This document shows positions 4,040-9,620 of a stretch of 35,552 nt of DNA, in pieces (the stretch's first letter is position 1; every line of letters begins with the position of its first letter). The stretch is taken from contig JAOAEE010000039.1 of the NCBI GenBank assembly GCA_026416955.1, positions 1 to 35,552 on the forward strand. The letters are read 5' to 3'. Under the pieces are notes generated by a model. It did no database searches. It was not told where the DNA came from and worked only from the letters and a program-made list of their open reading frames with translations. Both the position numbers and the translations under genes were made by a program. The DNA is from Ignavibacteria bacterium. GTDB taxonomy: Bacteria; Bacteroidota; Ignavibacteria; Kapaibacteriales; UBA2268.

Positions 4040-4975
4040 ATGAAAACTGCTTTGCTTGCACCGGGACAAGGTTCTCAATATGTTGGAATGATAAAGGACT
4101 TATACGATAGTTTCCCAGAAGTTCAACGATTGGTCGACAAAGCTGATGATATTCTTGGTTACAAATTGAGCGAAATTTGTTTCAATGGACCGTTGGAAGA
4201 ACTGAAAAAAACCAAATACACCCAACCAGCCTTATTTCTGCATAGTGCTTGCATTTTTGAACTACTTAAAGGACGAATACAGTTTGATTGTGCGGCTGGT
4301 CATTCGGTTGGAGAATATGCTGCACTATATTTCGCTGGAGTATTATCATTCGAATCTGCTCTCCAACTTGTTCAGTTACGTGGCAACCTAATGTTTTCTG
4401 CTGGTGAATTTGCCCCGGGAACTATGTTTGCAGTGATTGGCTTAGAAGACAGCATAGTTGAACAAATTTGCGAAAAACTTACAAGCGAAGGCAATGGTAA
4501 TGTCGTTGTCCCTGCAAATTACAATTGCCCCGGACAACTTGTTGTATCGGGCTCGGCAGACTACCTTAGGGAAAAGGTTAATGCTTTTAAAGAAGGAGGG
4601 GCAAAGATAGTCAAGGAATTAGTCGTAAGTGGCGCTTTTCATTCTCCCTTAATGTTACCTGCACAAAAAGAACTTGCCATCGCAATAGAAAATACCGAGT
4701 TTAAGGATGCCATAGTTCCAGTATATGTTAATGTTACGGGGAACCCAGAAACAAAAGCCGAAAGCTTGAAGGAAAACCTTATCAAGCAATTAACCTCTCC
4801 GGTGAAATGGACCCAAAGTATTTTGCAAATGTACAACGATGGTGTGAGAAGATTTATCGAAATTGGTGCGGGAAATGTCTTGCAAGGTTTAGTTAAACGA
4901 ACTGTAACTGATTGTGAAATTTTAGGATTAGATAAGGCAACCGATATTAATAATTTTCTTTCAAGTTTGAAATAA
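4040..4975 (+). CDS. fabD: Malonyl-CoA:ACP transacylase
   Basis: FabD loads malonate from CoA onto the acyl carrier protein. The protein is 311 residues. The GQGSQ N-terminal motif, the nucleophile Ser89 in GHSVGEYAAL, the malonate-binding Arg in QLRGNLM (about residue 114) and His201 in SGAFHSPLM form the expected active site. It lies directly behind fabH and ahead of fabG in the usual cluster order. A consensus promoter-like pair (TTTG at 4966, TATTTTTG at 4989) overlaps its last codons and the following gap, so fabG and later genes may also be transcribed independently. Confidence 0.97.
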   Translation: MKTALLAPGQGSQYVGMIKDLYDSFPEVQRLVDKADDILGYKLSEICFNGPLEELKKTKYTQPALFLHSACIFELLKGRIQFDCAAGHSVGEYAALYFAGVLSFESALQLVQLRGNLMFSAGEFAPGTMFAVIGLEDSIVEQICEKLTSEGNGNVVVPANYNCPGQLVVSGSADYLREKVNAFKEGGAKIVKELVVSGAFHSPLMLPAQKELAIAIENTEFKDAIVPVYVNVTGNPETKAESLKENLIKQLTSPVKWTQSILQMYNDGVRRFIEIGAGNVLQGLVKRTVTDCEILGLDKATDINNFLSSLK

Positions 4976-4996
4976 GATTAAAAAAACTTATTTTTG
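4966..4996 (+). promoter_or_regulatory. Predicted internal promoter ahead of fabG (TTTG-N19-TATTTTTG)
   Basis: TTTG at 4966-4969 and TATTTTTG at 4989-4996 are separated by 19 nt, an exact fit to the Bacteroidota primary sigma consensus (TTTG, 19-21 nt, TAnnTTTG). The fabG ATG follows 14 nt later. The -33 element lies inside the 3' end of fabD. A consensus match in an AT-rich region can arise by chance, and no transcript data are available here. Confidence 0.5.
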
Positions 4997-5754: not shown

Positions 5755-5803
5755 ATATATTTTTTGGTAAGTTTTTGTTTAACATTAGTTTAAAGGAGAA
5801 TTT

Positions 5804-6066: not shown

Positions 6067-7326
6067 ATGGCAAGATATAATTTCCCTAGAGTTGTCGTTA
6101 CGGGTATTGGTGTAATTACACCAATAGGTAACACTGTCGAGGAAATGTGGAAATCGCTCCTCGATGGTGTAAGCGGTGCAGATTATATTACCCGTTTCGA
6201 CACGACCCATTTCGATACAAAATTCGCTTGCGAGGTAAAGAATTTCGACCCACTTCTTTACCTTAACCGAAAAGAAGTTCAAAGAATGGATTTATTCACC
6301 CAATATGCTATTGCCTCGGCAACACAAGCATTAGAAGATTCTGGACTAAATCTTGACAAAGTAGATAAAGAAAGGGTCGGGGTTGTTTTTGGTTCTGGTA
6401 TTGGTGGGATGTGGACTTATCATTATCAGCAAGAACTTGTATACCAAAGTGGTGGTCGCCCCGATAGGATTTCGCCTTTCTTTATTCCTATGATGATTTC
6501 CGATATTGCTGCTGGGCATATTGCAATTCGCTGGGGTTTCAAGGGACCAAATTATGCAACCACTTCTGCTTGTGCTACTGCATCCCACGCATTGGCAGAT
6601 GCACTGATGCTAATTCAAAGAGGTGATGCCGATGTTATGGTGGTTGGAGGAAGCGAGGCCGCTATCTGTCCGATGGGAGTTGGTGGGTTCAATGCAATGA
6701 AGGCGTTATCAACACGGAATGACGACCCCAAAACTGCATCCCGCCCCTTCGATAAAGACCGCGATGGTTTTGTTATGGGAGAAGGTGCTGGCGTTCTAAT
6801 TCTCGAGACCCTTGAGCACGCAATGAATAGAGGTGCAAAAATATATTGCGAATTTGCTGGATTTGGTTTGACCGACGATGCGTTCCATATTACTCAACCT
6901 GCCCCTGGCGGCGAAGGTGCATACCGCTCGATGAAACTTGCTATTGAAGATGCAAAACTTACACCCCAAGACATTGATTATATAAATGCTCACGGTACTT
7001 CTACCCCGTACAACGATAAAAACGAGACCGAGGCAATCAAGTCCTTGTTTGGAGATTATGCATATAAAATTAACATAAGTTCCACCAAGTCCGAGCACGG
7101 GCATTTGCTCGGCGCTGCTGGTGCAGTCGAAGCAATTATTACCATTTTGGCAATAAAAAATGGTATTATTCCACCTACAATTAACTACTTTACACCCGAC
7201 CCAGAATGCGATTTAAACTATACACCAAACAAACCAGTTGAAAGAAAAGTTCGTGCAGCGTTGAGCAATACTTTTGGCTTTGGTGGACACAATGCAACTT
7301 TGACATTTAAAGCTTTCGAAGAATAA
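6067..7326 (+). CDS. fabF: 3-oxoacyl-ACP synthase II (KAS II)
   Basis: FabF performs the chain-elongating condensation of acyl-ACP with malonyl-ACP. The protein is 419 residues with the Cys-His-His triad: C169 in TSACATASHA, H309 in NAHGTSTPYND and H346 in KSEHGHLLGAAG. The last motif is slightly unusual: E. coli FabF has KSMTGH, so Met-Thr is replaced by Glu-His beside the catalytic histidine. The terminal NTFGFGGHNATL motif is complete. The gene follows acpP and precedes rnc by 19 nt. No enoyl reductase or FabZ dehydratase is encoded in this window, so they must be elsewhere. Confidence 0.97.
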   Translation: MARYNFPRVVVTGIGVITPIGNTVEEMWKSLLDGVSGADYITRFDTTHFDTKFACEVKNFDPLLYLNRKEVQRMDLFTQYAIASATQALEDSGLNLDKVDKERVGVVFGSGIGGMWTYHYQQELVYQSGGRPDRISPFFIPMMISDIAAGHIAIRWGFKGPNYATTSACATASHALADALMLIQRGDADVMVVGGSEAAICPMGVGGFNAMKALSTRNDDPKTASRPFDKDRDGFVMGEGAGVLILETLEHAMNRGAKIYCEFAGFGLTDDAFHITQPAPGGEGAYRSMKLAIEDAKLTPQDIDYINAHGTSTPYNDKNETEAIKSLFGDYAYKINISSTKSEHGHLLGAAGAVEAIITILAIKNGIIPPTINYFTPDPECDLNYTPNKPVERKVRAALSNTFGFGGHNATLTFKAFEE

Positions 7327-7327
7327 T

Positions 7328-7335
7328 TATTTTTG
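7328..7335 (+). promoter_or_regulatory. TATTTTTG box before rnc
   Basis: An exact TAnnTTTG match in the fabF-rnc gap, 10 nt before the rnc GTG. The closest upstream TTTG is 25 nt away (7299-7302), longer than the usual spacing. A transcript started here would begin inside the 5' arm of the inverted repeat described at 7334-7430. Confidence 0.2.
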
Positions 7336-7430
7336 GCTTCGAGCCGTGAAAAATTTTTTTGATTTTATTTATACTGGCCTTTTCAGATTTACACCAAAAG
7401 AAAAATTATCGAACATAAGGCTCGAAGCCA
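7334..7430 (+). repeat. 12-bp perfect inverted repeat bracketing the rnc start codon
   Basis: TGGCTTCGAGCC at 7334-7345 is the exact reverse complement of GGCTCGAAGCCA at 7419-7430. The left arm ends one base before the GTG start codon of rnc and the right arm lies inside codons 25-29, so the pairing would enclose the ribosome entry site in a 73-nt loop. Part of the loop can pair further (A/T-rich segments near 7350-7365 and 7395-7407). RNase III autoregulates by cutting a 5' stem in its own mRNA in E. coli; a similar role here is my inference. Confidence 0.55.
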
Positions 7431-8179
7431 CTAATTCTAATCAATTCGAAATATTTCGCCAAGAGAGAAAAAAAATTATTGAAAAAACTTTAGATATCCA
7501 AATTAAGAATATAAAGCTTTTCGAAGAAGCTTTAATTCATCGCTCCTACTTGCATTTGCTACCTAAAGGTGAATACAATTCCAACGAAAGGCTCGAGTTC
7601 CTTGGCGATACAGTTTTGAGTTTGGTTGTCTCCGAATATTTGTTTAATAATAATCCTAATCTGCCCGAAGGTGAACTAACAAAAATTCGTTCTTGGTTAG
7701 TTAATAAACATTCTCTTTCAGTTGTCGCTCGCAAATTAGAGCTCGACAAACTTATCCTTGTTAGTTTTAGTACTGCCAAGACATTGGAACGCTCGGGGGA
7801 ATCTATACTTTCGGATGCTCTCGAAGCGTTGATTGCAGCTATTTATCTCGATTCTGGCTTGGATGTTGCTAAAAAGTTTATTTTGGAAAAACTTATACCT
7901 TTGTTGCAAAAGGAAAATGTTTTACAAGATAAAAATTATAAGAGTATTTTAATGGAAAAGGTGCAAGCGAAAGGTAAGATGGCTCCAACATACGAAGTTT
8001 TGGAAGAATACGGTCCTCCCCACGATAAAACTTTCTTTGTTGGTGTTTATGTAGACAATGTGCAAGTAGCTACTGGGAAAGGAAAAAGCAAAAAAGAAGC
8101 CGAACAAGAGGCTGCAAAAAATGCATTATCTAATTTAGAATTTTTGAATGGAGAAGAAAATGGAAAAACTAATTTTTGA
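7346..8179 (+). CDS. rnc: Ribonuclease III
   Basis: RNase III cuts double-stranded RNA in rRNA and mRNA maturation. The 277-residue protein has an N-terminal extension of about 45 residues, then the catalytic domain with the signature NERLEFLGDTVLS and the second acidic motif ESILSDALEALIAAIYLD. A C-terminal double-stranded RNA-binding domain follows (about 200-268), ending GKGKSKKEAEQEAAKNAL. The start is a GTG with no Shine-Dalgarno; no ATG lies between it and the conserved core, and N-terminal extensions are common in Bacteroidota RNase III. A 12-bp inverted repeat brackets the start codon. The last 20 nt overlap gcvPB. Confidence 0.95.
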   Translation: MKNFFDFIYTGLFRFTPKEKLSNIRLEATNSNQFEIFRQERKKIIEKTLDIQIKNIKLFEEALIHRSYLHLLPKGEYNSNERLEFLGDTVLSLVVSEYLFNNNPNLPEGELTKIRSWLVNKHSLSVVARKLELDKLILVSFSTAKTLERSGESILSDALEALIAAIYLDSGLDVAKKFILEKLIPLLQKENVLQDKNYKSILMEKVQAKGKMAPTYEVLEEYGPPHDKTFFVGVYVDNVQVATGKGKSKKEAEQEAAKNALSNLEFLNGEENGKTNF

Positions 8180-9620
8180 AAAAAGTGTTAAAGGTCGGAA
8201 GGCATACTCGTTACCAAGTTTGAATTACGAGGAATTTAGTTCCGATAAACTGCTTCCAAGCAACCTTCGTCGGGCAAGCGAATTGAATTTGCCCGAACTT
8301 AGCGAAGTAGAAGTTGTTCGTCATTTCGTAAAACTTTCGAAACTTAATTATTGTATCGAAGACAACGTTTATCCACTGGGCTCTTGTACAATGAAATATA
8401 ATCCAAAAGTGAACGAAAAGGTAGCCTCGTTCGATGGTTTTACAGCGCTACACCCTCATCTTGATGAAGATGCCTGCCAAGGTGCTTTGCAATTAATGTA
8501 TGAATTAGGAGAAAGTTTAAAGAAAATCACTGGTTTTTCCGGTGTTACTTTGCAACCTGCTTCTGGGTCGCAAGGGGAACTTACCGGTTTACTTTTATTT
8601 AGAGCATATCACCAAGACAGGGGTGATACCAAAAGGACAAAGATTTTGATTCCAGACTCTGCTCATGGTACTAATCCAGCATCTTCAGTGATTGCGGGTT
8701 TTCAAGTTGTAACTATAAAGTCCGACCCCGATGGTAGAGTAAATGTCGATGAATTAAGAAAATATTGCGATGATACTACTGCTGGATTTATGCTAACAAA
8801 TCCCAATACTGTGGGTCTTTTCGAAAAACATATACTTGAAATTTCCGAAATAATACATAATTGCGGCGGATTGATGTATTTAGATGGAGCCAATTTAAAT
8901 GCTTTACTCGGAATAGTTTATCCAGCCGATATGGGTTTTGATTGTATGCATATTAACCTACACAAAACATTTTCCACTCCGCACGGTGGTGGTGGTCCTG
9001 GTTCCGGACCGGTTTGCGTCAACGATAAACTTGCCCCTTACTTACCAGTGCCCCAAATAACCTTCGATGGGAAAAAGTACTCTTTTAATTACAACTTACC
9101 AAAAACAATTGGTAAAGTTCATTCATTTTTTGGAAACTTTTTAGTATTTGTTCGGGCTTATTCCTACATATTGATGAATGGAACAGAAGGTTTAAAACAA
9201 ATTAGCAAGGCTTCGATAATTAACGCCAATTATTTGTTAAGCAAACTTAAAGAAGTATATTTCCAGCCCTTTAAAGAGTATTGTATGCACGAATTTTTAA
9301 TTACTGGTGATAATCAGAAGAAGTTCGGGGTTACAACAAAAGATATAGCCAAGCGAATACTTGACTTTGGTTTTTACGCACCAACAATATATTTCCCCTT
9401 GATAGTCCACGAAGCAATGCTGGTAGAACCGACCGAAACCGAGTCGAAGGAAAGATTGGATGAGTATGCAAGTGTGATGCTGCAAATTGCCAAAGAAGCC
9501 GAAAGTAATCCAGAAATTCTTTTAACTGCTCCGCATAATACACCAGTGCGAAGAGTTGACGACGCACGCGCAGCCCGACTTATTAATGTTAACTATTTCA
9601 AAGGCGAAGCCAAAGAGTAA
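8160..9620 (+). CDS. gcvPB: Glycine dehydrogenase (decarboxylating) subunit 2
   Basis: This is the PLP-binding half of the split P-protein of the glycine cleavage system, which decarboxylates glycine and passes the aminomethyl group to the H-protein. At 486 residues it has normal subunit-2 length. The PLP lysine lies in HINLHKTFSTPHGGGGPGSG, and upstream are PASGSQGELTG and AHGTNPAS. I chose the ATG at 8160 because GGAG at 8150-8153 lies 6 nt upstream; an in-frame ATG at 8148 would add four residues. It overlaps the rnc 3' end by 20 nt. The partner gcvPA and gcvT/gcvH are not in the window, and no glycine riboswitch is visible. It is the last gene before a terminator. Confidence 0.95.
   Translation: MEKLIFEKSVKGRKAYSLPSLNYEEFSSDKLLPSNLRRASELNLPELSEVEVVRHFVKLSKLNYCIEDNVYPLGSCTMKYNPKVNEKVASFDGFTALHPHLDEDACQGALQLMYELGESLKKITGFSGVTLQPASGSQGELTGLLLFRAYHQDRGDTKRTKILIPDSAHGTNPASSVIAGFQVVTIKSDPDGRVNVDELRKYCDDTTAGFMLTNPNTVGLFEKHILEISEIIHNCGGLMYLDGANLNALLGIVYPADMGFDCMHINLHKTFSTPHGGGGPGSGPVCVNDKLAPYLPVPQITFDGKKYSFNYNLPKTIGKVHSFFGNFLVFVRAYSYILMNGTEGLKQISKASIINANYLLSKLKEVYFQPFKEYCMHEFLITGDNQKKFGVTTKDIAKRILDFGFYAPTIYFPLIVHEAMLVEPTETESKERLDEYASVMLQIAKEAESNPEILLTAPHNTPVRRVDDARAARLINVNYFKGEAKE

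Follow-up and report, generated by a model that had tools for sequence, protein, structure and literature searches.

In E. coli gnd, a complementary sequence within the gene's own open reading frame reportedly occludes the ribosome site (Chang, Green and Wolf 1995, as cited in PMC6728339). A comparable arrangement is predicted for the ribonuclease III gene, rnc, at the locus described here, where in three genomes of one genus (G000, G001 and G002) the start region can pair with the gene's own coding sequence across a long loop. The gene is a different one from gnd, the effect on translation is a prediction, and the stop codon of an upstream gene lies only 18–19 nt before the start. Structures that close the start of a downstream gene over a long range are also described, in the available part of PMC6728339, for operons in which initiation depends on upstream translation (atpHA, rplJL, motAB and infC-rpmL). 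In operons of the atpHA/rplJL type the partner strand often lies in the upstream gene, whereas in the predicted folds of our locus we found it in rnc and no pairing of the start region with the upstream ORF, fabF; the left arm is therefore all that a ribosome translating fabF can reach.

RNase III is known to act on its own message. According to the accessible portion of PMC3386247, it does so in S. aureus, in Streptomyces (within the coding sequence) and in E. coli (in the leader); the S. aureus message is cut at +296, in the coding sequence, and the authors of that study note that the site on the rnc message varies between bacteria. In vitro, the S. meliloti enzyme likewise cleaves the message that encodes it (PMC6121014, as excerpted). 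The E. coli site, rncO, is a hairpin in the 5' leader (excerpts of PMC8708148 and PMC3386247), and the present locus resembles it in having a double-stranded element on the 5' side of rnc. It differs in that one of the two stem strands is coding sequence and that rnc comes after another gene, fabF, which ends 19 nt upstream, so that an rncO-like position in a 5' untranslated leader is not found here. The double-stranded element in the rnc message that is the mark of an RNase III autoregulatory site is itself predicted (fold z −4.25). A stem that includes coding sequence had been taken in the first-pass annotation for a different layout; such a layout is not without precedent, autoregulation through the coding sequence being known from S. 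aureus and Streptomyces (PMC3386247, in the part available). As in these two, the coding part of rnc is structured at our locus, here as a prediction; unlike theirs, the predicted stem has the start codon either in its loop or within the helix. The start stem would be a variant of known control, either by start occlusion or by RNase III autoregulation, and if it is confined to one genus, it would be another independent solution to the control of rnc. Among the titles listed in our literature searches, none dealt with how rnc is controlled in bacteria of the Bacteroidota type.

An inverted repeat around the rnc start

The window, that is, the whole 35.5-kb stretch of DNA analysed here, belongs to genome G000 and carries the genes plsX-fabH-fabD-fabG-acpP-fabF-rnc-gcvPB in this order on the + strand. 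The arrangement of the genes and the type of promoter point, tentatively, to the Bacteroidota side of the tree. The spacer between fabF and rnc is 19 nt long in G000, and its last 12 nucleotides form one arm of an inverted repeat whose other arm lies inside rnc (Table 1). As first noticed from the sequence, the two 12-bp arms around the GTG at 7346 are indeed perfectly complementary; 73 nt separate them. The left-arm 12-mer has no second copy anywhere in the G000 genome. From the in-frame stop upstream to about codon 20, the GTG is the sole start codon common to G000–G003. A search of positions 7150–7600 for known Rfam families gave five matches at E values up to 1, every one below its gathering score.

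Table 1. Features at the fabF–rnc junction of G000 (positions in the window).
Feature	Position	Strand	Remarks
fabF	6067–7326	+	TIGR03150, 651 bits; TAA at 7324–7326
Possible outer helix, 5' side (end of fabF)	7314–7320	+	7 bp; G000 fold prediction; partner 7445–7451; weak
Left arm, TGGCTTCGAGCC	7334–7345	+	Non-coding, between fabF stop and rnc start; perfect complement of 7419–7430
GTG start codon of rnc	7346–7348	+	Pairing with 7414–7416 possible
rnc, ribonuclease III	7346–8179	+	Gene proposed to be controlled; TIGR02191, 240 bits against a cut-off of 166
Right arm, GGCTCGAAGCCA	7419–7430	+	Within rnc codons 25–29; perfect complement of 7334–7345
Possible outer helix, 3' side	7445–7451	+	G000 fold prediction; partner 7314–7320; weak
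gcvPB	8148–9620	+	NF003346, 729 bits; open frame overlaps rnc end; downstream of a cut, should one occur

The first-pass annotation had placed the start codon in the loop of the fold, a detail that needs correcting: in the predicted fold the GTG of G000 can pair past a 2-nt bulge, but opening it alone costs only 1.5 kcal/mol, so a block in this genome would rest on the bases that precede it. When the whole start region (−15 to +12) is considered, the predicted opening energy of rnc is 19.6 kcal/mol, the highest among 32 window genes called mechanically for this ranking (next 12.9, mean 7.0). The corresponding values are 22.7 kcal/mol in G001, 18.5 in G002, 11.4 in G003 and 7.1 in G004. For G001 and G002 they were computed at the GTG, because the mechanical call in G001 had taken an upstream TTG (9.9) and rnc was absent among the six G002 rows listed.

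Within the window, we found five perfect repeats of at least 12 bp with loops of up to 200 nt, as compared with a mean of 1.2 and a maximum of 4 in 60 dinucleotide shuffles, so the length of the rnc-start repeat is unremarkable by itself. It is the only one of the window repeats with at least 8 G+C in 12, a composition seen in none of 100 shuffles, albeit by a threshold set post hoc, once the repeat was known. The predicted fold of 7325–7440 has z −4.25, and 2 of 611 equal-length stretches along the window reach a lower z. With five such repeats in one window, a repeat in a single genome is weak evidence, and the case rests on the relatives.

Conservation within the genus

The genus sample comprised five genomes, G000 and four others (G001–G004). 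Perfect arms are present at the homologous place over 12 bp in G000, 14 bp in G001 and 15 bp in G002. In G003 a 7-bp core remains (GCUUCGA with UCGAAGC), and in G004 no comparable stem is predicted at the rnc start (fold z −0.51); the stem is intact in three of the five genomes, partial in the fourth and absent in the fifth. Fold z values at the rnc start were −4.25 in G000, −6.30 in G001, −5.50 in G002 and −4.05 in G003. The start codon lies within a continuous predicted stem in both G001 and G002, where the pairing reaches into it through a G-U pair in the former and a G-C pair in the latter. The folds predicted for G001–G004 lack the outer 7-bp helix in the form that it takes in G000. G003 has an irregular hairpin of its own (7+5 bp; L006 1530–1564) in the loop region of rnc, its outer stem being weak, and this separate hairpin might replace the weakened outer stem.

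Repeats of at least 11 bp number seven in the window and five (G001) and one (G002) in 12-kb neighbourhoods, and the rnc-start repeat is the only one that is matched across all three genomes (lists compared by eye). Resampling of synonymous codons reached the energy of the start-region duplex in 2 of 500 cases for G000, in 0 of 500 for G001 and in 2 of 500 for G002, while the duplexes of G003 and G004 were no stronger than those of resampled codons (247/500 and 282/500). The energy of the whole fold was reached in 30 of 500 resamplings for G000, 4 for G001, 5 for G002, 0 for G003 and 182 for G004.

Conservation of sequence is seen in both arms. The left arm contains an unbroken stretch of 12 bases that does not differ between G000, G001 and G002, in a spacer of 18–19 nt. 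In the other operon spacers that could be aligned, the longest identical runs were 1, 3, 11 and 11 bases, one of the two 11-base runs overlapping the TAnnTTTG box between fabD and fabG and the other being the TTTGTTTAACA stretch before acpP. The right-arm codons CTC, GAA and GCC are likewise identical in the three genomes, among which 50–54% of the rnc codons for the same amino acid differ between any two. All three genomes agree in 58 of 190 shared rnc codons, and for the amino acids of the arm in 4 of 29 Leu, 12 of 20 Glu and 1 of 15 Ala codons (arm included). The identical 11-base run in the right arm is one of four in rnc (831 columns), with five in fabF (1275 columns), and is telling only because its position was specified in advance. 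Most of the variation in the 73 bases between the arms is silent, the pattern of translated codons, and this speaks for the GTG start. An invertible DNA segment was also considered as a reading of the repeat.

Covariation was sparse. In an alignment of four genomes, one pair changed on both sides (columns 16/90, C-G to U-A in G003), 134 of 500 shuffles matched this single covarying pair, no better than a chance arrangement, and the two pairs next to it are lost in G003. The comparison of the arms in close relatives that the first-pass annotation had called for accordingly gave a mixed answer, with perfect arms in two of the four, partial and mostly uncompensated arms in one and none in the last. 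Taken together, a start-enclosing RNA stem is likely conserved on the rnc start.

Proposed start clamping and its rivals

We propose, with a probability of roughly 0.55, that the repeat acts in cis, as RNA, within the fabF-rnc-gcvPB message of this genus and clamps the start of rnc. The computed features behind this proposal are the pairing potential, its presence in three of five genomes (with a fourth partial), the fact that both arms are conserved and a predicted opening cost that is unusually high. The stretch of 12 to 15 bases immediately before and at the start codon would pair with rnc codons 24–29, and the stem, if formed in the cell, would cover the landing place of the ribosome, lower initiation and thereby hold RNase III synthesis low relative to the neighbouring fatty-acid enzymes. 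The fabF stop codon lies 18–19 nt upstream of the rnc start, so a ribosome ending fabF would intrude on the outer bases of the left arm and might open the stem, which would tie rnc output to the translation of fabF. With the usual ribosome footprint, such a ribosome would reach about 7336–7337, the outer few pairs, and we therefore infer that opening by fabF ribosomes is a reasonable step.

Start clamping is the mechanism we favour, and RNase III self-cutting is a live second, possible but held only tentatively. The enzyme would cut the stem, remove the rnc start codon and sever fabF from rnc-gcvPB, such that excess enzyme destroyed its own message. Self-cutting is attractive because rnc encodes the very enzyme that cuts such stems, the most closed start of the 32 mechanically called genes thus belonging to the gene for an enzyme of double-stranded RNA cleavage, and it is plausible because cutting of the rnc mRNA by its own product is known from several distantly related bacteria, though not at one common site. 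The continuous helix of only 12–15 bp is, however, short for a substrate, model RNase III substrates having roughly 20 bp, and G003 keeps only 7 bp (besides the separate irregular hairpin in its loop) and G004 is without a predicted stem. Clamping and cutting are compatible and both may act. The full combination, in which the stem is cut by RNase III, with loss of the start and a split between fabF and rnc-gcvPB, and also blocks translation until fabF ribosomes arrive, seems doubtful to us; if it were true, the RNase III level would be set by the enzyme's own activity together with fatty-acid enzyme synthesis. Simple mutations in the arms could tell repression apart from cutting.

That the repeat arose by chance and was retained through coding constraint or close kinship is improbable. 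The abundance of 12-bp repeats in the window (five where 1.2 are expected), the weak covariation and the three further runs of right-arm length in rnc are all in keeping with chance, but both arms are intact in G000–G002 even though about half of the shared codons differ pairwise and the left arm is non-coding. Quite improbable, too, is a DNA site for a dedicated regulator, made of two inverted, near-palindromic copies of GGCTTCGAGCC, 84 bp apart. In its favour, either arm comes close to self-complementarity (GGCT-TCG-AGCC) and can form a small hairpin of about −4.5 kcal/mol, and invariant arms alone cannot distinguish DNA from RNA. That the stem reaches into the start codon in G001 and G002, on the other hand, fits pairing and would not be needed by a DNA site. 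The two-sided change at columns 16/90 in G003 is a further point against it, but the adjacent pairs are lost there. Copies of the 11-mer beyond the arms number one in G000, four in G001 and none in G002, with none at all in G003 and two in the stemless G004, and with so few of them a regulon is not visible.

The first-pass annotation had also read the TATTTTTG box at 7328–7335 as an escape promoter, starting short rnc transcripts without the stem. The Bacteroidota-type promoter consensus is TTG ... TAnnTTTG, and the box is an exact match to the second element, TAnnTTTG. It has no −33 TTG partner 17–23 nt upstream and is absent at the homologous place in G001, G002 and G003, and it is one of 29 such motifs that the + strand carries across the window; the TAnnTTTG that is common to G000–G003 sits instead in the fabD-fabG spacer. 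Lacking both the spaced TTG and conservation, the escape promoter was rejected and has very little left to recommend it.

Range beyond the genus and other features of the window

We searched for a start-enclosing duplex at 70 loci, drawn from 77 genomes with an rnc match among 80; G036, G050, G059, G061, G066, G078 and G079 lay outside this set, as did G080–G085. Starts in distant genomes were picked mechanically, and 4 of the 70 fell on no start codon. The shuffle fraction was at or below 0.05 at 7 of the 70 loci and at or below 0.01 at five, three of which are G000–G002. Among the other 67 loci, four were at or below 0.05, against about three expected by chance. Of these, G016 (shuffle fraction 0.005) and G014 (0.01, fold z −2.36) are leads only. 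G003 and G004 were among the 70 tested, though not among the 30 loci listed. A family-wide element was rejected, a clear start-enclosing duplex being found only in G000–G002 of the 70 loci. Nor are the rnc starts of the other genomes closed to an unusual degree (19 of 67 loci exceed the mean inside rnc), and a comparison with the fabF start showed no general trend (rnc harder to open in 15 of 26 genomes). On these results, and within the range tested, the element is therefore confined to part of one genus. A scan of genome contigs covered at least 80 loci, among the matches listed none exceeding 47% identity to rnc, and was not used.

In G014, which belongs to another genus of the family, bases before the rnc ATG can pair with early rnc codons (L008 1487–1564), with a different sequence; given how many tests were made, chance could account for this pairing.

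Elsewhere in the window, the strongest predicted fold covers fabF codons 9–47 (6091–6206), with z of −6.4 to −6.8; across G000–G004 its z values are −6.4, −5.1, −0.7, −2.4 and −2.0, making it strong also in G001 only. The plsX start (1973–2088) likewise folds strongly in G000 (z −4.2 to −5.3), a strength that is not retained in G001–G003 (−4.2, −1.2, −0.7 and −0.3 in G000–G003). A promoter-like element, TTG-N19-TAnnTTTG, spans the end of fabD and the fabD-fabG spacer (4967–4996), its TAnnTTTG being present in G000–G003; as a candidate promoter inside the operon it is preferable to the 7328 box. Lastly, the fabG-acpP spacer (5755–5803) contains TGTTTAACA and AGGAG upstream of acpP in all of G000–G003, possibly a regulatory site and a ribosome site, respectively. 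AGGAG thus lies near the acpP start in four genomes, and at that place the rnc start has the stem arm instead.
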